From Euhalothece natronophila Z-M001 (GTDB taxonomy: Bacteria > Cyanobacteriota > Cyanobacteriia > Cyanobacteriales > Rubidibacteraceae), in assembly GCF_007904085.1 (NCBI RefSeq), contig NZ_CP042326.1, forward strand, positions 1,674,001-1,738,000: DNA of 64,000 nucleotides, read 5' to 3'. The notes under the pieces were generated by a model. The model saw only the letters and a list, made by a program, of their open reading frames with translations, was not told where the DNA came from and searched no databases. The position numbers were made by a program, and so were the translations under genes. Shown here one piece after another: positions 16,126 through 28,529 of the stretch (its first letter is position 1; the number at the start of each line of letters is the position of its first letter).

Positions 16126-18960
16126 CTAGAAATTTGCATTTCCCTCAATCCGAAATTCTGGGCTAGAATTACCAAATCCAAGGCGAGCTTCTAGAGCAAC
16201 ATCTTGATTATTTAAATCAACTTTCATCACTGGACCAAACATAAAAACGGAGTCACGTCCGGGGAGACCTGTCAAAGTGCGACGAAAATTACGAATAAAC
16301 CCACCCAATGCAATCTCAGAGCTAACATCTTGGGTTGTTTCTAGAGTATAAAATAACTCATCCCGAGCCTCTAAAGAGCCATCAATACTTAACCCCGTAT
16401 TGAAATCAACTCCTCCACTCAAGATACCAATTAAATCTGTTTCTGTTTCTTCTTCTTCCTGACCATTTGGAATGTAAGCAATTAAAGGGGAAACTCTAAA
16501 AGAGCGATTTTGTCGTTGATTCAGATAAGTATAAGACGCGATCGCGGTAAAAGGATTACGTTCATTAGTGGCACTATTCCAAGAAACGCGAAATGAGGGA
16601 ACATGAGCATCAAGGCCGATGGTCTGTCCCTGATCATTTTGGCGCAGATCCCGAATAATCCAATTTAAGTTACCACTGAGATACGCCCCTGCTGATGGCT
16701 CTTCTACTCCTAGAGTATTTTCTTCAACTCCTGGGGCTGAGTCAGCATCAACATTAAACCACGCTCCAGCACTTAGACCATAATTAAAATTTTGGTCAGA
16801 ACCACTCCAAAGCAACTCCACACTGGGGAGACTTAAACGACCAACAAACTGGCTAAAATTAATATCCCGAGTATCAATACGAGCAAGTTCTAGGCGATCA
16901 AAAGCTGCGGCAAATCCTTTAGTGGGAACAGGGGCTTCTGGGGCAATTTGTTCAACAAATTGTTCCCCCTCAGGAGTAATCAATCCCACCTGACCACCAA
17001 TATTATCAGTGAGTTCTTCAGAAGAACCATCAATGGGAACCCCGATAAAATTCAAATTGAAATCATCCTGAGATAAGCGCGTTTCTGAGAAAAAAGGTTG
17101 CCCTTGATTGGTGGAAACCGATTGATCTTGAAAATCCACTGATCTTGAGTGTAATCCTGTTCTCAATTGTAAAACACTAGACTGGTCTGGGGTAATTGTA
17201 CTAGGAAAGGTAACTGTTCCTGAAACTTGTTCTAACTCGCTGCTAGTATTACCAGTTCTCAAGGTTTGGTTTAATCTTTGGTTGATTTGCTGTCTTTCGT
17301 TAGAGGTAGCTTCTGTATTAAGAGGGCTAAACTCTTCTCCAGCTTCAGACTTTTCTTTGGCTTCATCAATAGACCCTTGTAAGTTATTGAGATTACCAAA
17401 CCCTGCAAGAGGAAATCCTAGTAGCATTCCTAATGTAGAATTGATTGATTGGGTACTATCCACTTCCCCTTCATCAAAAGATAAAGTAATTCCCCCTCCA
17501 GGATTGAGATAAACATTTGTATAAGTGGCATTAACCTCATCTTCGCCATATTCCAACATTCCACGATTATAAGAGGTGCTAAAGTAAAAGCGATGCCAGT
17601 CGAAATCTTCGCGACGCTCTTGTGTAAACACTTCAGGCTCTTGCTGACCTAACCAAGCCCACAAAAGAGAATTAAGATATCTCTCATCTCGTTCTTCATC
17701 ACTGAGAAAAGGATTCACAAGGACATTGAGCAAATCTAAGTTATCAAAAGTCTCTCTCTGACCAATTTTCAATCCAGGATCTGAGGAAAAGGCAGTACTA
17801 AAGCCGGGAACTTCCTCAGTCAGCGGACTACCAAAGGTTAACCCAGCATCCTCTAACGCGGAATCGGGAATCTCTGCTCCTGCTTCTAGAGGAACATTTC
17901 CACCATCTAAGAGAGGACGCAGATCCACAGTAGGAAAAGCCTGTAAAATACGGGGGGCGTTAGCCGGATCAATTTCCCCAAATAAAGAGCCACCTCCTTG
18001 AATTCGATCACTGGTTCCGGTTCCGGTTCCAATCAGAGAGCGAGTCTCTTCATCACTCTCAAAATCAATATCGGCAATATCAATATTAATATCGATATTT
18101 TCTCCAGCAAATAACTCTTCTGGCCCTCCAGCTTCCGCTATTATTGAAAAAACCGTAAACTCATCAAGATCTTCTTGCTCTCCTTCCACTAAACTAAGGT
18201 CACCTGAAAATGTCCAAATCGCTTGCACGCCAAAAAAGGCTTGTCGTAGCAAAAAGGCTTCATTAATTTCTACTTCGTTGGTTTGCCCTTGATATTGTAC
18301 GCCCGACTGAACTCCTTGAGTTTCAAAAACAATGCGATTCCCACTCATTTGCCAGTAAAATTGGTCTTCTTTCCGGAAATGACCAACGCCTAGTTGTTTC
18401 AGAGCAGGATTATCTTCTGCAAAACGAATATCAAAGTCTGAATAAGTTTCTACTTGATCAGGAGAAAACTGATCTTCAGAAATGGTTAAATTATCAAATG
18501 GATTGAGAATAAAGGGATATCTTTTATTAGTATTAGAAAGAGATTCTAGGATTAATTCTTGTTGTTCTTCTGCTTCTTCAGGATCAGGGGGTTCTGGTTC
18601 TTCTTCAGGGAGTAAATCTTCTGGCTCAATTTCTCGAAATAAATCATCATCTTCAGAGTCAGAAGGTAAAACATCATCCCGTTGGGCTAACTCATAGAAG
18701 GGGGCTTCTCGGTTAACTGAAAGGGAATTAGATTTAGTGATACTGGTATCCTCAACATCTAGAAAATCAACACCTAAAATCTTATGGTTATCTTCATGAT
18801 TAACCTCATTAAATTCTAATTTAGAGTGATCTGTCACTTCTAAATTATTAAAATCAGGAGAGGAGGCACTAGCTTGGTTCTGACTACCATACGCGATGAT
18901 TAGGGTAAATATGCTGATGACAATTTTAATCTTAAAAAGACTTACATAAATTTTTTTCAT
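16126..18960 (-). CDS. Large outer-membrane beta-barrel protein, DUF3769-like
   Basis: 944 residues. A signal peptide (basic start, hydrophobic 10-25, QASA about 29-32) precedes a very acidic segment near 110-135 (DSEDDDLFREIEPEDLLPEE). The conserved-looking core contains FYWQMSGNRIVFETQGVQ near 206-223; a conserved GNR motif is what I recall for the cyanobacterial family DUF3769. The last part has alternating beta strands and the chain ends EFRIEGNANF, a terminal Phe as in BAM-inserted barrels. An LptD-like or porin-like role is conceivable but unproven. It is 30 bp downstream of an exported repeat-protein gene on the same strand and probably cotranscribed with it. Confidence 0.72.
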   Translation of the reverse strand: MKKIYVSLFKIKIVISIFTLIIAYGSQNQASASSPDFNNLEVTDHSKLEFNEVNHEDNHKILGVDFLDVEDTSITKSNSLSVNREAPFYELAQRDDVLPSDSEDDDLFREIEPEDLLPEEEPEPPDPEEAEEQQELILESLSNTNKRYPFILNPFDNLTISEDQFSPDQVETYSDFDIRFAEDNPALKQLGVGHFRKEDQFYWQMSGNRIVFETQGVQSGVQYQGQTNEVEINEAFLLRQAFFGVQAIWTFSGDLSLVEGEQEDLDEFTVFSIIAEAGGPEELFAGENIDINIDIADIDFESDEETRSLIGTGTGTSDRIQGGGSLFGEIDPANAPRILQAFPTVDLRPLLDGGNVPLEAGAEIPDSALEDAGLTFGSPLTEEVPGFSTAFSSDPGLKIGQRETFDNLDLLNVLVNPFLSDEERDERYLNSLLWAWLGQQEPEVFTQERREDFDWHRFYFSTSYNRGMLEYGEDEVNATYTNVYLNPGGGITLSFDEGEVDSTQSINSTLGMLLGFPLAGFGNLNNLQGSIDEAKEKSEAGEEFSPLNTEATSNERQQINQRLNQTLRTGNTSSELEQVSGTVTFPSTITPDQSSVLQLRTGLHSRSVDFQDQSVSTNQGQPFFSETRLSQDDFNLNFIGVPIDGSSEELTDNIGGQVGLITPEGEQFVEQIAPEAPVPTKGFAAAFDRLELARIDTRDINFSQFVGRLSLPSVELLWSGSDQNFNYGLSAGAWFNVDADSAPGVEENTLGVEEPSAGAYLSGNLNWIIRDLRQNDQGQTIGLDAHVPSFRVSWNSATNERNPFTAIASYTYLNQRQNRSFRVSPLIAYIPNGQEEEETETDLIGILSGGVDFNTGLSIDGSLEARDELFYTLETTQDVSSEIALGGFIRNFRRTLTGLPGRDSVFMFGPVMKVDLNNQDVALEARLGFGNSSPEFRIEGNANF

Positions 18961-18990: not shown

Positions 18991-20358
18991 CTACTCTAAG
19001 CCGACATTCGGTTCATTTAAGTCTTGAAAAGAACGCTCTCTCTCTTGGGTAATCGCCTTAACAAGAGAGATAACCTCTGATATAGTTAAGTCCTCCTCTT
19101 GTACTTTAGTGGCAATTGCCTCTTCTAAACTGAGACTGTCTTCATCAATAAAGTATTCAATCTCTAACCCCTCTACCCGAATAGGGTCAGTTTCGCTCCC
19201 CTCCAACTCAGAGGTAACAGTGACGAGAGTTCCCCCCTCTTCTCCAATAAGCTGACCTCGCGCTAGTTCTACTTCTCCTGCGGCCACCGAAAGCAGATCA
19301 TTATCCTCATCCTCTCGTTGATCGTCAACCAAAGAAGCCCCACTGACTCGCGCTTGTTCTTGTTCTCCACCATCGCCAAATGCCCTTACAAGGGAAATAA
19401 TCGAGGAAGCCTGATCAAAGTCAGCCTCTTCAATCGCTTGGGCTAGCTCAACTTCTAAGTTTTCATTGTCTGTTAGGATATCGCTATTATTGCTTTCAAT
19501 GGTTAATTCGCTGAGAACTTCAACGCCATTAAACTCCTGAGTTTTAGTGCTTGTTGTAATGTTATTCTGATCAAAACTCTGTCCAGGAGCAAGTTCTACT
19601 TCTGTAGCGATGACTGAGCGAACAGTATTGTCTGCATTAGCTTCTTCCTCTCGAAAAGCGGTTGCTGTCACCCGATCGCGCTCTTGAATCCCGATTCCTT
19701 CTGTAAAGGCTCTGACTAGAGAAATAAGTTCTGACTCACTGAGATCGTCTCCCACTTCAAAATCAGGATCATCTCCGTCTATTGTCTCAAACTCAATTTT
19801 TAATTCTGTTTCATTTAAATCATCAATATCCACTGCATCGCGGATTGATTCACCAGCAAAGGTAATATTCACCTCATCAAGTAACTCCCGAGGCTTTTCT
19901 AATAAAACTTGAGTCGCGATCGCGTCTAATGTTCCTTTCTGACTGACTGCTGCAACCACATTAATAAAAAAAGTGTCATCTAATTCTAATTCGTCATTCT
20001 CTACTTCTACCGCCTCAATTAATGCTTGTTGTAACTCACTATCTTCTACTAGCGCCTTGATTAATTCTTGCTTCGACTCCTTATCGGCTGCCTCTCCTGC
20101 GTCTCCAAGGCGTTCTAGTAATTCCTGAACATCTCCATCCACGAAATTTTCTAAATCTTTTGCTTCTACCGCTTCAATGACATCATCTTGTAAATCGACC
20201 CCCACATCAATTCCTGTTTCTTCGGCTACCCTCTCTAGTAAGTTAACGCGATTTTCATTAGCATTAGCAGGAAGGGTAAAAACAGAAACTAGACTTGCTA
20301 GCGCGATCGACAAGACAGGAGTGAAATTACTCTGATGAAAGTAAAACTTGATTTTCAT
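18991..20358 (-). CDS. Exported acidic repeat protein, three ISLV[RK]A-type repeats
   Basis: 455 residues with a signal peptide (FTPVLSIALASLVSVFTLPA, cleavage near ANA). Residues 35-150 are helical and extremely acidic (DVQELLERLGDAGEA). There follow three repeat ends at LISLVRAFTEG, IISLVRAFGDG and VISLVKAITQE; the last two are preceded by a beta-type segment of the form ARVSGASLVD..LLSVAAGEVELARGQ. The chain ends NVGLE. It shares this repeat and C-terminus with the two genes upstream. No known family recognised. Exported to the periplasm or outside by inference. Probably cotranscribed with the outer-membrane protein 30 bp downstream. Confidence 0.78.
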   Translation of the reverse strand: MKIKFYFHQSNFTPVLSIALASLVSVFTLPANANENRVNLLERVAEETGIDVGVDLQDDVIEAVEAKDLENFVDGDVQELLERLGDAGEAADKESKQELIKALVEDSELQQALIEAVEVENDELELDDTFFINVVAAVSQKGTLDAIATQVLLEKPRELLDEVNITFAGESIRDAVDIDDLNETELKIEFETIDGDDPDFEVGDDLSESELISLVRAFTEGIGIQERDRVTATAFREEEANADNTVRSVIATEVELAPGQSFDQNNITTSTKTQEFNGVEVLSELTIESNNSDILTDNENLEVELAQAIEEADFDQASSIISLVRAFGDGGEQEQARVSGASLVDDQREDEDNDLLSVAAGEVELARGQLIGEEGGTLVTVTSELEGSETDPIRVEGLEIEYFIDEDSLSLEEAIATKVQEEDLTISEVISLVKAITQERERSFQDLNEPNVGLE

Positions 20359-20456
20359 AGCATGGAAGCCTCTTTTTATCTACTTTTGATAAATATTTCG
20401 ATTGGCGGTGACCTTTTGACGTTGAGGATGTCAGAAGAAGGACAACTGATATAGCC

Positions 20457-20546
20457 CAGTAAGTCCTTTTCCTGATGAGATATCTTGGCAAGGAGAAAAG
20501 GCTTCTCGGTTAGCAGTGCAAGAAGTGTTACTCTAAACCAACCACT
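20457..20546. repeat. Conserved 3' flank of repeat-protein genes, copy 1
   Basis: Matches 21461-21541: both contain TAAGTCCTT, a GATGAGATAT core, TTGGCAAGG and AAGGCTTCTC, followed by the shared C-terminal codons. A stem AAG.CCTTTTC/GAAAAGG.CTT is possible, so this may be a terminator duplicated together with the gene. Confidence 0.55.
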
Positions 20547-21392
20547 TCTTCACTGCTACCTGCACTTTCCTCGGTGAATGCTTTAACTAAGGAGATGACA
20601 TCAGATTCGCGATCAGTGTCAAAGTTATTAGCAACAACGTCAGCGATCGCGCCTTCTAGCAAATCTTTTGAATCTCGAGAGAGAAATTCAGAACTAAATG
20701 CAAAGTCAAGATCTAGTTCCGTCAATACCCCATTCTCTACTGTGGGATCAATCGTAAGTGGACGAAATACTTGTTCAACTTCAATAAAAGGAAAAGAAGG
20801 AATAATACTAAAGTCACGGCCAGTCAAACCACCACGATCTGCTAATACTTGTCCACGGGCTAATGTTGCTTGACCAGCAACTGCAGAAAGTTCCTTCCCA
20901 GTATCGAACGTTGCTGCACCAGTGACTTGTGCTTGCCCCAGGGGAGAATTAATTTCGCCAAAGCTTTTAACCAAAGAAATAATGTCAGATTCATTGCTAA
21001 AATCAGCCTGCCCCACTGCTTGAGCAATTCTTTCTTCTAGAAGGGTAGTATTACCACGACCAGCAGGGGTGGCAATAGGAAATCCTAGATCTAAGCTTGT
21101 AACAGCATTATCAGCGTCATCAATGCTGCCAATTTCTGGGTCAATCTGAACATCAATAGTTGCAGGTATCGACCCCAAGTACAGGTCTGTCACCAAAGCG
21201 TTCCCCAGGAGATAAAATGGCTTCCCCTGCTACAGCAGAAACCGTACTGGCATCATCTACTAGGGAAGCCCCAGTGACTCGCGCTTGCCCAGCTTGGGCG
21301 CTTGAAGTGCTTAATACGCCCATTAAGCCTAAGATACCGATGAGAGAGAAACTCATCAAAGGAATCGTCTTTAAGAATGTTTGTGTCTTCAT
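20528..21392 (-). pseudogene. Exported two-repeat acidic protein, interrupted by a frameshift
   Basis: Two overlapping frames make one gene. The first, from the ATG at 21392, encodes a signal peptide ending SSAQA, then GQARVTGASLVDD..VSAVAGEAILSPGE and a premature stop at 21153. The second frame (to 20528) continues with IPATIDVQIDPEIGS, ESDIISLVKSFGE, a second GQAQVTGAATFD repeat and the family tail ESDVISLVKAF..VVGLE. Removing one base from the CCCC run at 21173-21176 rejoins them as PVLGSIPATI. The architecture then matches the neighbouring 255-residue paralogue. Either a recent mutation or a homopolymer sequencing error; the intact downstream half argues for recency or error. Confidence 0.75.
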
Positions 21393-21460
21393 ATTTACCT
21401 ACCTTGATTTATAGATCTATTGCTTTCGAGGAGATCAGGAGAAAGATAAGGGATATAATG

Positions 21461-21541
21461 CAATAAGTCCTTCTCTTGATGAGATATTTTGGCAAGGAAA
21501 AAAAGGCTTCTCAGTTAGGAAGTGTTACTCTAAACCAACCA
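21461..21541. repeat. Conserved 3' flank of repeat-protein genes, copy 2
   Basis: Counterpart of 20457-20546, with TAAGTCCTTCTC, GATGAGATAT, TTGGCAAGG and GGCTTCTCAGTTAG before the shared final codons. It shows that the duplication unit included the gene's downstream region. Confidence 0.55.
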
Positions 21542-22292
21542 CTCTTTCACTGCTACCTGCACTTTCCTCGGTGAATGCTTTAACTAGAGAAATGACATCC
21601 GATTCGCGATCAAAATCTGCGTCATTTACAACGTCAGCGATCGCTGCTTCTAGTAAGGGGATATCATCTTCTTCTACTGAGAAATTAATGTCTAATTCAC
21701 TCAAGACTTCACCCTCTAAGTCATCCTCGTCCTCAATAGTTGGGTCAATAGTAGCTACTGGGTCATCATTATTATCAGGTTCTGCTAAAAGCTGTCCACG
21801 AGCTAAGGTTGCTTGACCAGCAATTGCAGACAGGGTATTGTGAGTATCGAAAGTAGCCGCACCAGTGACTTGCGCTTGTCCTAGGGGAGAGCTAACACCG
21901 CCAAAATTTTTAACCAGAGAAATGATATCCGATTCATCAGTAAAATCGTCAGTGCTAATTTTATTAGCGATCGCCGCTTCTAGAAGAGCAGCCTCATTAT
22001 CATCAATGTCAAAATCAATGTCTAACTGTTGTACAGCAACATTTTCACTGTTGGGAATATTATCAATGTCTGGGGTAATAGTAATACCCTCACCTAGACT
22101 TTGCCCCGGCGCTAAAATGACCTCCCCAGCAACTGCTGAAACCTCGCTATCATTATCAACAAGAGCCGCACCAGTGACTCGCGCTTGCCCTGCTTGTGCG
22201 CTTGGAGTCCCTAAGACTGCCATCATACCTAATGCACCTGTAATCGAAGCACCTGCAAAGAGGATTTTTGTTAGAGATAAATGCTTACTCAT
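21525..22292 (-). CDS. Exported two-repeat acidic protein (reference copy of the family)
   Basis: 255 residues. Signal peptide MSKHLSLTKILFAGASITGA through TPSAQA, cleavage before GQARV. Two repeats of about 105 residues follow. Each begins GQA[RQ]VTGAA, continues as a beta-like [LV]SA[VI]AG[EQ]..LA.GQ strand pair, then an Asp-rich LDI[DN]F strand, a helix LLEAAIA, and ends ESD[IV]ISLVK.F. The tail is SSERVVGLE. The mature protein is strongly acidic, as expected for an exported protein in saline medium. No known domain recognised. A 200-bp upstream gap likely holds its promoter. Function unknown. Confidence 0.8.
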   Translation of the reverse strand: MSKHLSLTKILFAGASITGALGMMAVLGTPSAQAGQARVTGAALVDNDSEVSAVAGEVILAPGQSLGEGITITPDIDNIPNSENVAVQQLDIDFDIDDNEAALLEAAIANKISTDDFTDESDIISLVKNFGGVSSPLGQAQVTGAATFDTHNTLSAIAGQATLARGQLLAEPDNNDDPVATIDPTIEDEDDLEGEVLSELDINFSVEEDDIPLLEAAIADVVNDADFDRESDVISLVKAFTEESAGSSERVVGLE

Positions 22293-23811: not shown

Positions 23812-26070
23812 ATGAGTATTGACCGGCGACAATTTTTAAAACAAGTTTGGCTCACTGTATTTGCCTGGAGCGCATCGAGAGAAGTCCCATTATCCCTCAC
23901 TAGCAAAACTTATCAGTATAGTCAGGCTTTAGCCAGTTCTAGGAGCAGAAAGCTCGCCTTATTAGTGGGGATTAATCAATATCAACAGGAAAATCATCTC
24001 AAAGGCTGTTTGACAGATGTGGAACAACAAGCCGAACTTTTACAGTATCGGTTTGGGTTTCAAGGGTCAGATATTCTCACCCTCACCGATGGGGAAGCAA
24101 CGCGCGATCGCATTGTTAACGCCTTTATTGACCATTTAATTAATCAGGCTCAACCTGATGACATTGTTGTCTTTCACTTTAGTGGGTACGGGACAAAAGC
24201 CAAACTTCCTGATTCACTTCAACAAGAAAATGCCCCCTCAGCAATTAATTGTCTTCTCCCCACTGACGCATCAGCTTCAGGAAGATGGTTCACTGACCAC
24301 AATTTCCTATTAGAAAGCACCTTAGCTACTTTAGCGCGATCGCTGTCAACGAATAAAGTCACCTTTGTGCTTGATACGAGCTATTTAGGAGTGGGTCAAA
24401 ATCTACAAGGTCATTTAAGGGTTCGCTCCATTAATAATTCTCGCACCTCTCCCATTAGTGAAGATGATTTAGAATTTGCCCGCAAGATAGAAGCCAAATT
24501 TCACAATACTGCCCATTCTTTAAGGAATCTTATCGACCAAGGTCAAAATTTACCCGGCATTGTCATTACGGCAACCGGTCCCCAACAAATTGCCACTGAA
24601 ACTGATTGGGGAGGGTTTAATGGGGGAGTCTTTACCCATACCCTCACTCATTCTCTGTGGGAAGCCATTTCCGCTAGTAATATTCAAATTTCCCTCACTC
24701 GCAGTGCCCAAACTATTGAACGCCTATTAGGACCCCAACAGCAACCACGTTTATTTGGACAAGATCAAGGGAAAACGATTGTTCCCTATTATGCCTTCTC
24801 TGACTTATTTGGGGCAGAGGCAGTGATTACCAATGTGGAGAAGGAAGGAACCCTAGAACTACGTTTATCTGGAATTCCTCCGACTCTCCTTAAAGACTTT
24901 GGGGTGAATTCTCTCTTCTCTGTTCCCTCTAATCAAACGGAAGAAAACTTGTCTTTGGTGGAACTGGTGACTCGTGAAGGGTTAGTAGGAAAAGCGCGAT
25001 CGCTGCAGGAAACGCCCAATTTAGAAGTAGGACAGGGCTTACAAGAAGAAATCCGAGTTATCCCTCGTAACCCAGGATTAATTGTCGCTCTAGAGTCAAA
25101 TTTAGGGCGTATTGAACGCGTTGATGCCACCAGTGCCTTTTCCAGTGTCCCAGAAGTGTCTTCGGTGATTATTGCGGGAGAAGGAACAGCAGACTGTTTA
25201 TTTAGTAAAGGACAATCTCTGCAAGGAAATCCGCCCATTAAAGCCACTACAGAAAAAGGTTATGGGTTATTTTCTGTAGGGGGAATCCCCATTCCTAGTA
25301 CTGTAGGCACACAAAACGAGGCTGTTAAATCAGCAGTTATGCGGGTGCTTCCGAAACTAAATACCCTTTTAGCTGCCAAATTATGTCGCTTAACCGTCAA
25401 TGAAGGTTCTTCGCGCTTAGGATTACGGGCTAGTTTAGAAATTGTTTCTCAAGCAGGACAAATTACCCCTGTTATTAGTCAAGAGACATTTCGTTATCGT
25501 CAAGGAAAAGAGTTTTTCTTTAATAATCAATTGTTACCCTATGCCTTAGCGGGGGCATTTCCACAATTAGAAACGGGTACTCAAATTCAATCTCGGTTAA
25601 CAAATATCAGCGATCGCGCGATTTATGCTTTATTATTAGGGGTAGATTCTGGAGCTAATCCGATCGCCTTCTATTCTCCTGATTCCTCGGCAGTTCCCGA
25701 TCCCTCCCAAAGTATTCAACCATTACAAGAGTTGAAAATTTCCCCAAGGGAAGAGCGGGTGATTCCTAAAAACAAAGCCTCTTATAATTGGACAGTTACA
25801 GGCCCTGCTGGCTTATCAGAAATCTATATCATTGGCAGCACTCAGCCTTTTACAAAAACTCTCAATCTCCTATCTCAAATTCCCCAATCTAAGGGAGAAG
25901 GGGAACGCATTATTGATCTCCCTGAACCCCTAAAAGTGGTACAAGCCCTACAAGAAGACTTGGCAGCTGCTAGTAATGTTGAGAGCGAACTTATCAATTC
26001 TGGTAGTAACTCTTATGCGTTAGATGTCAATTGTTGGGCAACTTTGAGCTTTGTTTACCAAGTGGTTTAA
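23812..26070 (+). CDS. Caspase-fold protein (orthocaspase-like) with Tyr/Ser in place of the His/Cys dyad
   Basis: 752 residues. The N-terminus MSIDRRQFLKQVWLTVFAW resembles a twin-arginine export signal (RRQFLK). The peptidase C14 fold spans about 46-330: KLALLVGINQYQ, then HFSGYG at 122-127 where active caspases have H-x-G-H-G, and VLDTSYLG at 186-193 where they have D-x-C-x-S-G. Tyr126 and Ser190 thus occupy the catalytic His and Cys positions. The remaining 400 residues carry beta-rich repeats seen in long cyanobacterial orthocaspases, ending CWATLSFVYQVV. Likely non-proteolytic, perhaps a binding or regulatory protein outside the cytoplasm. Confidence 0.85.
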   Translation: MSIDRRQFLKQVWLTVFAWSASREVPLSLTSKTYQYSQALASSRSRKLALLVGINQYQQENHLKGCLTDVEQQAELLQYRFGFQGSDILTLTDGEATRDRIVNAFIDHLINQAQPDDIVVFHFSGYGTKAKLPDSLQQENAPSAINCLLPTDASASGRWFTDHNFLLESTLATLARSLSTNKVTFVLDTSYLGVGQNLQGHLRVRSINNSRTSPISEDDLEFARKIEAKFHNTAHSLRNLIDQGQNLPGIVITATGPQQIATETDWGGFNGGVFTHTLTHSLWEAISASNIQISLTRSAQTIERLLGPQQQPRLFGQDQGKTIVPYYAFSDLFGAEAVITNVEKEGTLELRLSGIPPTLLKDFGVNSLFSVPSNQTEENLSLVELVTREGLVGKARSLQETPNLEVGQGLQEEIRVIPRNPGLIVALESNLGRIERVDATSAFSSVPEVSSVIIAGEGTADCLFSKGQSLQGNPPIKATTEKGYGLFSVGGIPIPSTVGTQNEAVKSAVMRVLPKLNTLLAAKLCRLTVNEGSSRLGLRASLEIVSQAGQITPVISQETFRYRQGKEFFFNNQLLPYALAGAFPQLETGTQIQSRLTNISDRAIYALLLGVDSGANPIAFYSPDSSAVPDPSQSIQPLQELKISPREERVIPKNKASYNWTVTGPAGLSEIYIIGSTQPFTKTLNLLSQIPQSKGEGERIIDLPEPLKVVQALQEDLAAASNVESELINSGSNSYALDVNCWATLSFVYQVV

Positions 26071-27230: not shown

Positions 27231-28529
27231 ATGTATGGATGTCAACAAAATCGAGTTCGATCTAGTTCAGATTTAATTCCTGTTTTGGAGTATATTTGTC
27301 GGATTGCAAACAATCTAACTAATTGTGGGATTTATCTGGCTCGTCAAACTTTCTTCAAAGAAACCCGAATCGTTGGTAAGTTTGATTTAGAGAAATCCCT
27401 AAAACAACAGGAAAATTATCAAGCACTGTATTCCCAATGCTCCCAACAAACTTTAAGAAGTGTCGCTGAATCTTTTAAGTCGTTTAAGGAGTTAAGAAAA
27501 TGCTTCTTTAATGGTGAAATTGATAAACACCCGAAACTTCCTACCTATCGAGAAAAAGGTGGTTTAGCGGTAGCTACCTATCCGAAACAATCCCTTAGAC
27601 TGAAAGATAATCATGTAAGAGTACCTCTTGGTAAAACTGCCAAATCTCAGTTAGGTAAAAAAGAATTTTTCCTTCCCTTTCCTTCTAACTTAGAGTTTAA
27701 GCAGATTAAAGAACTTAGGATTCTTCCTAGAAATAAAGAGTTTTATCTGGAGTGGGTTTATGAAACACCAGAAGTCAAGAAGACGGTTAACTCAGAAGAA
27801 GCCTTAGGAATTGACCCTGGTATTGATAACTGGTTAACTTGTGTTGCTACTCTCGGTGAGTCTTTCATCATTGATGGAAGAAAAGTAAAATCTTTAAATC
27901 AAAACTATAATCGTCGAGTCTCTTCCTTGAAAGAAGGAAAGCCTCAAGGTTATTGGAATTTTGAGTTATCTAAAATCACTGAAAAACGGAATCGTCAAAT
28001 CAGAGACGCTGTGAACAAAGCAGCCCGAATGGTCATTAACTATTGTCTTGATAAAAACATAGGAACAATTGTTTTTGGATGGAATCAAGGTCAGCGACAG
28101 GGAATAAACATCGGAAAGAAAAACAATCAAAACTTTGTCCAGATTCCCACAGCTAAGTTAAAGGCTCGTATTCAACAATTAGCAGAAGAACACGGACTTG
28201 AGTTTGTAGAAACTGAAGAATCTTATACCTCAAAAGCCTCTTTTCTAGACCGTGATTTGCTACCGACATTCGGTGAAAAACCCGAAAGGTGGCAGCCATC
28301 AGGTAAAAGAGTAACAAGAGGATGCTATCAAGATTCAAAAGGAAGAATTGTAAATGCTGACGCTCAAGCAGCGGCGAACATTCTGAGAAAAGTAGAGATA
28401 CAGCTAGGCTTAGTTCTAGCCAAGGTCAATAGGGCAGCTTTGACTCTGCCATCCAGACTATACATCTGGCACTCTAAGAGAAAGAGCGGAGCAACGAGGT
28501 TTTTAACCCGTTGCGAAGCCACCTCTTAG
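27231..28529 (+). CDS. tnpB: TnpB-family RNA-guided nuclease homologue
   Basis: 432 residues, near full length for the group. RuvC motif I is GIDPGIDN (Asp near 193) and motif III is NADAQAAANI (Asp near 379). At the motif II position, where typical TnpB has a glutamate, it reads IVFGWNQGQRQ; the following ETEESYTSKAS region may supply a displaced acidic residue. The usual CxxC..CxxC zinc ribbon between motifs II and III is absent. TnpB proteins cut DNA guided by RNA from the element's right end and help element retention. An intact ORF with a good start suggests recent activity or selection; nuclease competence is uncertain. Confidence 0.85.
   Translation: MYGCQQNRVRSSSDLIPVLEYICRIANNLTNCGIYLARQTFFKETRIVGKFDLEKSLKQQENYQALYSQCSQQTLRSVAESFKSFKELRKCFFNGEIDKHPKLPTYREKGGLAVATYPKQSLRLKDNHVRVPLGKTAKSQLGKKEFFLPFPSNLEFKQIKELRILPRNKEFYLEWVYETPEVKKTVNSEEALGIDPGIDNWLTCVATLGESFIIDGRKVKSLNQNYNRRVSSLKEGKPQGYWNFELSKITEKRNRQIRDAVNKAARMVINYCLDKNIGTIVFGWNQGQRQGINIGKKNNQNFVQIPTAKLKARIQQLAEEHGLEFVETEESYTSKASFLDRDLLPTFGEKPERWQPSGKRVTRGCYQDSKGRIVNADAQAAANILRKVEIQLGLVLAKVNRAALTLPSRLYIWHSKRKSGATRFLTRCEATS

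Follow-up and report, generated by a model that had tools for sequence, protein, structure and literature searches.

What do three neighboring genes encode when their products are exported, strongly acidic and built of repeats that fit no described protein family? We addressed this question for a locus of Euhalothece natronophila Z-M001, which lies in a stretch of 64,000 nucleotides (the window) that was analyzed as a whole. An earlier note on this DNA had described three adjacent genes for exported acidic repeat proteins at 18991-22292, and their coordinates, signal peptides and acidity were borne out. The genes, here called C, B and A, are arranged head to tail on the minus strand (Table 1). 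Each starts with a Sec-type signal peptide (ending in ..SAQA, ..SAQA and ..PANA, respectively), and in their mature form C and A have a pI of 4.05, contain 23-27% Asp plus Glu (D+E) and lack cysteine. As the note had stated, the VGLE end is common to all three proteins, and the repeat ends (..ISLV[KR]..) number three in A and two each in B and C. The repeats, given there as about 105 residues long, are present and span about 103-136 residues, the first repeat of A being degenerate.

Table 1. Features of the repeat-gene locus (window positions).
Feature	Position	Strand	Description
944-aa outer-membrane barrel-like protein	16126..18960	-	next gene, same strand; conserved partner of the pilin-like family
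Gene A	18991..20358	-	455 aa, intact; signal peptide; C-terminus VGLE
Gene A, extra acidic N-terminal segment	about 20259-20002	-	
Gene A, putative pilin-type domains	about 20001-19684, 19683-19360, 19359-18994	-	first degenerate, other two clear
Gene B	20528..21392	-	two domains; tandem duplicate of C; frame broken; C-terminus VGLE
Gene C	21525..22292	-	255 aa, intact; two putative pilin-type domains; C-terminus VGLE
Gene C, signal peptide	22292-22191	-	
Gene C, putative pilin-type domains	22190-21882, 21881-21528	-	matched in register by the profile of the single-domain family alone

When C was used as the sole query in a search of the whole genome, B (60% identity, E 1.4e-42) and A (38% identity, E 3.3e-14) were recovered, and nothing beyond them was significant. 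The similarity among the three proteins is far beyond chance. At the DNA level, B and C agree at 87% over 114 nt of the gene end and at 77% over 90 nt of the spacer. Since the spacer is also shared, the two genes are the product of a tandem duplication. The acidity is not confined to the repeats: the neighboring 944-aa protein contains 17% D+E, compared to 9-13% in its homologues. Because this neighbor is acid-rich as well, the acidity reflects, at least in part, a general feature of the locus in a halophile.

Searches that started from the window proteins returned little. No family match was obtained with Pfam, NCBIfam or PADLOC, in agreement with the earlier observation that no named domain shows this pattern, and a sequence search of the PDB with C found no match either. 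A profile built from the repeats, which had been suggested as a check, gave no convincing match in either 391 genomes of the order or 386 genomes of the phylum. In their window form, the repeats were not detected in any other sampled genome, five congeners among them. The sole profile match in another genome (L007) was weak, belongs to a GAF-domain sensor protein and was taken as chance. No repeats were found when genome and viral collections were scanned by pattern, or when plasmids were searched. AlphaFold, run on the window sequences alone, gave models of low confidence (pLDDT 36 and 50); they suggest strands followed by two helices in each domain, and a fold search with them gave no usable match.

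The main clue to function was a gene that the earlier note had missed, located at 16126-18960. Homologues of its product are encoded in 29 other genomes among the 293 of the order that were sampled (30/293 with the window genome), mostly at 32-44% identity, and in one genome outside the order. Eight further genomes of the family were sampled, and the gene was found in none of them. Outer-membrane barrels typically end in phenylalanine, and this C-terminal residue was invariant in all 21 full-length proteins examined (21/21). The barrel proteins match no known family; none of 14 homologues hit a Pfam family at E 0.1. The tree of the barrel proteins did not place the window copy, which forms a long branch. 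In one genome that also has an intact barrel gene, another copy is a pseudogene with 12 in-frame stops (G296:C168, 27614-30376).

In other cyanobacterial families, the barrel homologues adjoin small exported single-domain proteins of about 140-160 residues (typically ~145); near the barrel of locus L051, there are four of them in a row. Their common plan is a signal peptide, then QA.ARGA.T...SG..SVSGE..LP.G, LTVTP and A..L..A...D.A.IIRA.AG, and finally GLE, GLD, ALE or ALD, an end kept in nearly all of these pilin-like proteins. When aligned, this plan is the same as that of the window repeat. A single hhalign comparison between the window repeats and the small family gave a probability of 91.6 and an E-value of 8e-7. 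To avoid circularity, a profile was built from 21 small proteins only, without window rows, and run against all window ORFs together with 2000 composition-matched shuffles of the window proteins. The best match was to C (E 3.4e-8), with both domains in register and aligned nearly end to end. A (E 0.01) and B (E 0.013) ranked second and third, ahead of all shuffles (best 0.03); both are marginal by themselves and are linked to C by direct similarity.

Judged by these alignments, the window repeat belongs, as a divergent form, to a broader family of small proteins exported by cyanobacteria. The profile search yielded no convincing match from the repeats themselves, but distant homologues were found beside the barrel homologues. 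One might instead hold that the repeats are unrelated to pilins, constituting an acidic secreted family specific to this lineage whose resemblance to the small proteins is due to chance or composition, as the missing library matches and the unproductive repeat profile would allow. We give this explanation hardly any credence. The non-circular profile outranked 2000 shuffles in register, and the repeats share their partner barrel with the pilin-like family. Moreover, the single-domain family contains only 8% D+E, so composition does not drive the match.

The small family led to a solved structure. Its profile matched PDB 9BTQ, deposited as "pilin" (158-residue precursor), with an E-value of 2.6e-12 along its length, including the final LD. 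A profile without signal peptides, in which two window repeats were included, still gave E 1.7e-8, and one member of the small family alone gave E 4.5e-20. The profile without signal peptides also matched carcinoembryonic antigen and WRAP, weakly, and these matches were set aside. Window repeats did not match 9BTQ directly, and the link runs through the single-domain family. Like 9BTQ, the single-domain relatives, which are clearly homologous to it in sequence, have a signal peptide, the same order of motifs in one domain and an [AG]L[ED] C-terminus. The signal peptide of the AxA type and the VGLE end of all three window proteins, and the corresponding features of their relatives, also fit a 9BTQ-type pilin family. 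The window proteins differ from 9BTQ in having two or three domains per chain and in being far more acidic. The designation "undescribed family" therefore holds for Pfam and NCBIfam, but not for solved structures, considering the homology of the small relatives to this pilin. Our literature search found no paper on 9BTQ or on the pilin-like family.

The pilin-like family and the barrel occur together. Pilin-like genes were detected in 25/293 genomes and barrel genes in 30/293, and all 25 pilin-bearing genomes also have the barrel. In 21 of these 25, the two genes are within 2.3 kb of each other; in two they are about 10.8 kb apart, and in two they are on other contigs. The five genomes with a barrel only comprise three fragmentary or contig-limited matches and two genomes of one genus. 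If genomes were independent, an overlap of this extent would be expected with a probability of about 1e-31; shared ancestry weakens this figure, but several families are involved. When the ORFs around 21 loci were clustered, only the barrel and the pilin-like families recurred widely across families. The other recurring ORFs were an antisense shadow ORF located within the barrel gene, and generic genes (sensor, ABC and similar) common to two families. No third conserved gene family, in particular no chaperone, was found around these loci. Gene neighborhood and the C-terminal residue together suggest that the 944-aa protein acts as an exporter or assembly platform of pilin-type subunits.

Multi-domain chains of the pilin-like family are not restricted to the window. 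Proteins of ~530-555 aa occur beside single-domain ones in another cyanobacterial family (f13), forms of 371-373 aa occur in two genomes, and such chains also adjoin the barrel in other genomes. What is peculiar to the window is that only multi-domain copies were found, with no single-domain pilin of this family detected in the genome, that they are strongly acidic, and that A has an extra acidic N-terminal segment. Covalent multi-domain chains, strong acidity and the lack of a single-domain subunit would also suit a salt-exposed coat, that is, exported surface or matrix proteins resembling an S-layer or a sheath, of pilin ancestry, which form no filaments and for which the barrel is a secretion pore or an anchor. 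We regard such a coat as unlikely, as the match of the family to a deposited pilin extends over the full length and the single-domain forms have this same barrel as their partner.

Two observations bear on the history of the locus. First, it is missing from the congeners, in which its two flanking conserved genes are not adjacent; it was therefore either gained here by transfer or lost elsewhere, and the barrel tree favors neither. Second, the reading frame of B is broken, which the earlier note had missed. In the ORF list, B appears only as an ORF of 222 aa (20528-21196) with a TTG start, because its N-terminal part sits in a different frame: the signal peptide and the first ~35 mature residues are read from an ATG at 21392. 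A single frameshift, around 21150-21225, accounts for the break, and it may be a true mutation or a sequencing or assembly error. For the Euhalothece sp. Z-M001 genome, the long-read assembler HGAP4 was used (PMC6971039), so an error of assembly may be the cause.

The frame break, the degenerate first repeat of A and the absence of the locus from eight genomes of the family could also mean that it is the decaying remnant of a filament system acquired from, or common to, other cyanobacteria. Decay seems quite improbable to us. The ORFs of C, A and the 944-aa gene are long and uninterrupted, and their ends are conserved; an error of one base is possible in a long-read genome (PMC6971039).

Two further genes were noted close to the locus. 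A caspase-domain (Peptidase_C14) protein with a DUF4384 domain (23812-26070 of the window) adjoins a conserved ABC ATPase and is kept in the congeners. A transposon-associated TnpB-like ORF is found at 27231-28529, and in a congener (L076) a split copy adjoins another conserved gene.

Taken together, we consider it probable that the products of the three genes are multi-domain pilin subunits and form, with the barrel as their dedicated exporter and assembly platform, a two-component outer-membrane system. Each subunit chain would be exported by Sec and would consist of two or three linked pilin-type domains, each with a strand-rich N-terminal part, probably two helices and a short acidic C-terminus of the GLE type. 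At the outer membrane, the barrel probably recognizes the conserved acidic C-terminal end, which is the likeliest recognition or locking element, and would then pass the subunits out. Once released, they would polymerize outside the cell into extracellular filaments, and the pre-linked domains would serve as ready-made filament segments. Strand exchange between domains is conceivable, but this is speculation that takes chaperone-usher pili as its model. The earlier note had proposed an extracellular or periplasmic, structural or adhesive role; it is the extracellular structural role that our results support. More tentatively, and with somewhat less than even confidence, we suggest that cyanobacteria have a chaperone-free pilus pathway of two genes, not represented in the family libraries, in which one barrel is enough to export and polymerize pilins bearing a C-terminal [GA]L[ED] signal, and some lineages make their filaments of covalent polypilin chains.

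The proposed system was compared with known ones. The gene clusters of chaperone-usher pili likewise encode small exported subunits together with a single large outer-membrane protein. However, no usher model matched any of 14 barrel proteins, no chaperone gene is conserved around the loci, and the subunits match no fimbrial family. In the export of the functional amyloids Fap and curli, secreted repeat-bearing subunits also adjoin a dedicated outer-membrane protein, but here neither subunit nor barrel has a Pfam match at E 0.1 and no accessory genes are conserved. Type IV pili of cyanobacteria are surface filaments, as those of the window system would be. In contrast to them, no type IV pilin model matched, the signal peptides are by inspection of the Sec type ending in AxA, and the locus contains no motor genes.

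Apart from type IV pili, the surface filaments of cyanobacteria are poorly understood. The window locus is ordinary in having relatives; its architecture is unusual, and so is the simple machine that it implies. Three orphan repeat genes become a testable system, with the GLE end as a candidate export signal. A solved pilin for which no family model exists gains a likely outer-membrane partner, which was present in every sampled pilin-bearing genome with no chaperone seen. In the window lineage, only acidic multi-domain chains take the place of single pilins.

Other exported or repeated proteins were observed near barrel or pilin-like genes. One of the two congeneric barrel-only genomes encodes a 319-aa exported protein (L064, 8748-9707) that adjoins a divergent barrel gene; its resemblance to the pilin domain is faint (SGSVTFTSAGEAISAYAVEV), and it may be a far relative. 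In family f13, several similar tandem proteins (MAVY.YTG...) are located beside a pilin-like gene (L060, 9614-13860). Two loci of family f8 (L066, 3416-4225; L067, 3915-4613) encode, directly upstream of the barrel gene, exported proteins in which IPTVNVT..NNIP units are repeated and which end in LD. These repeat proteins are possibly another type of substrate of the barrel.
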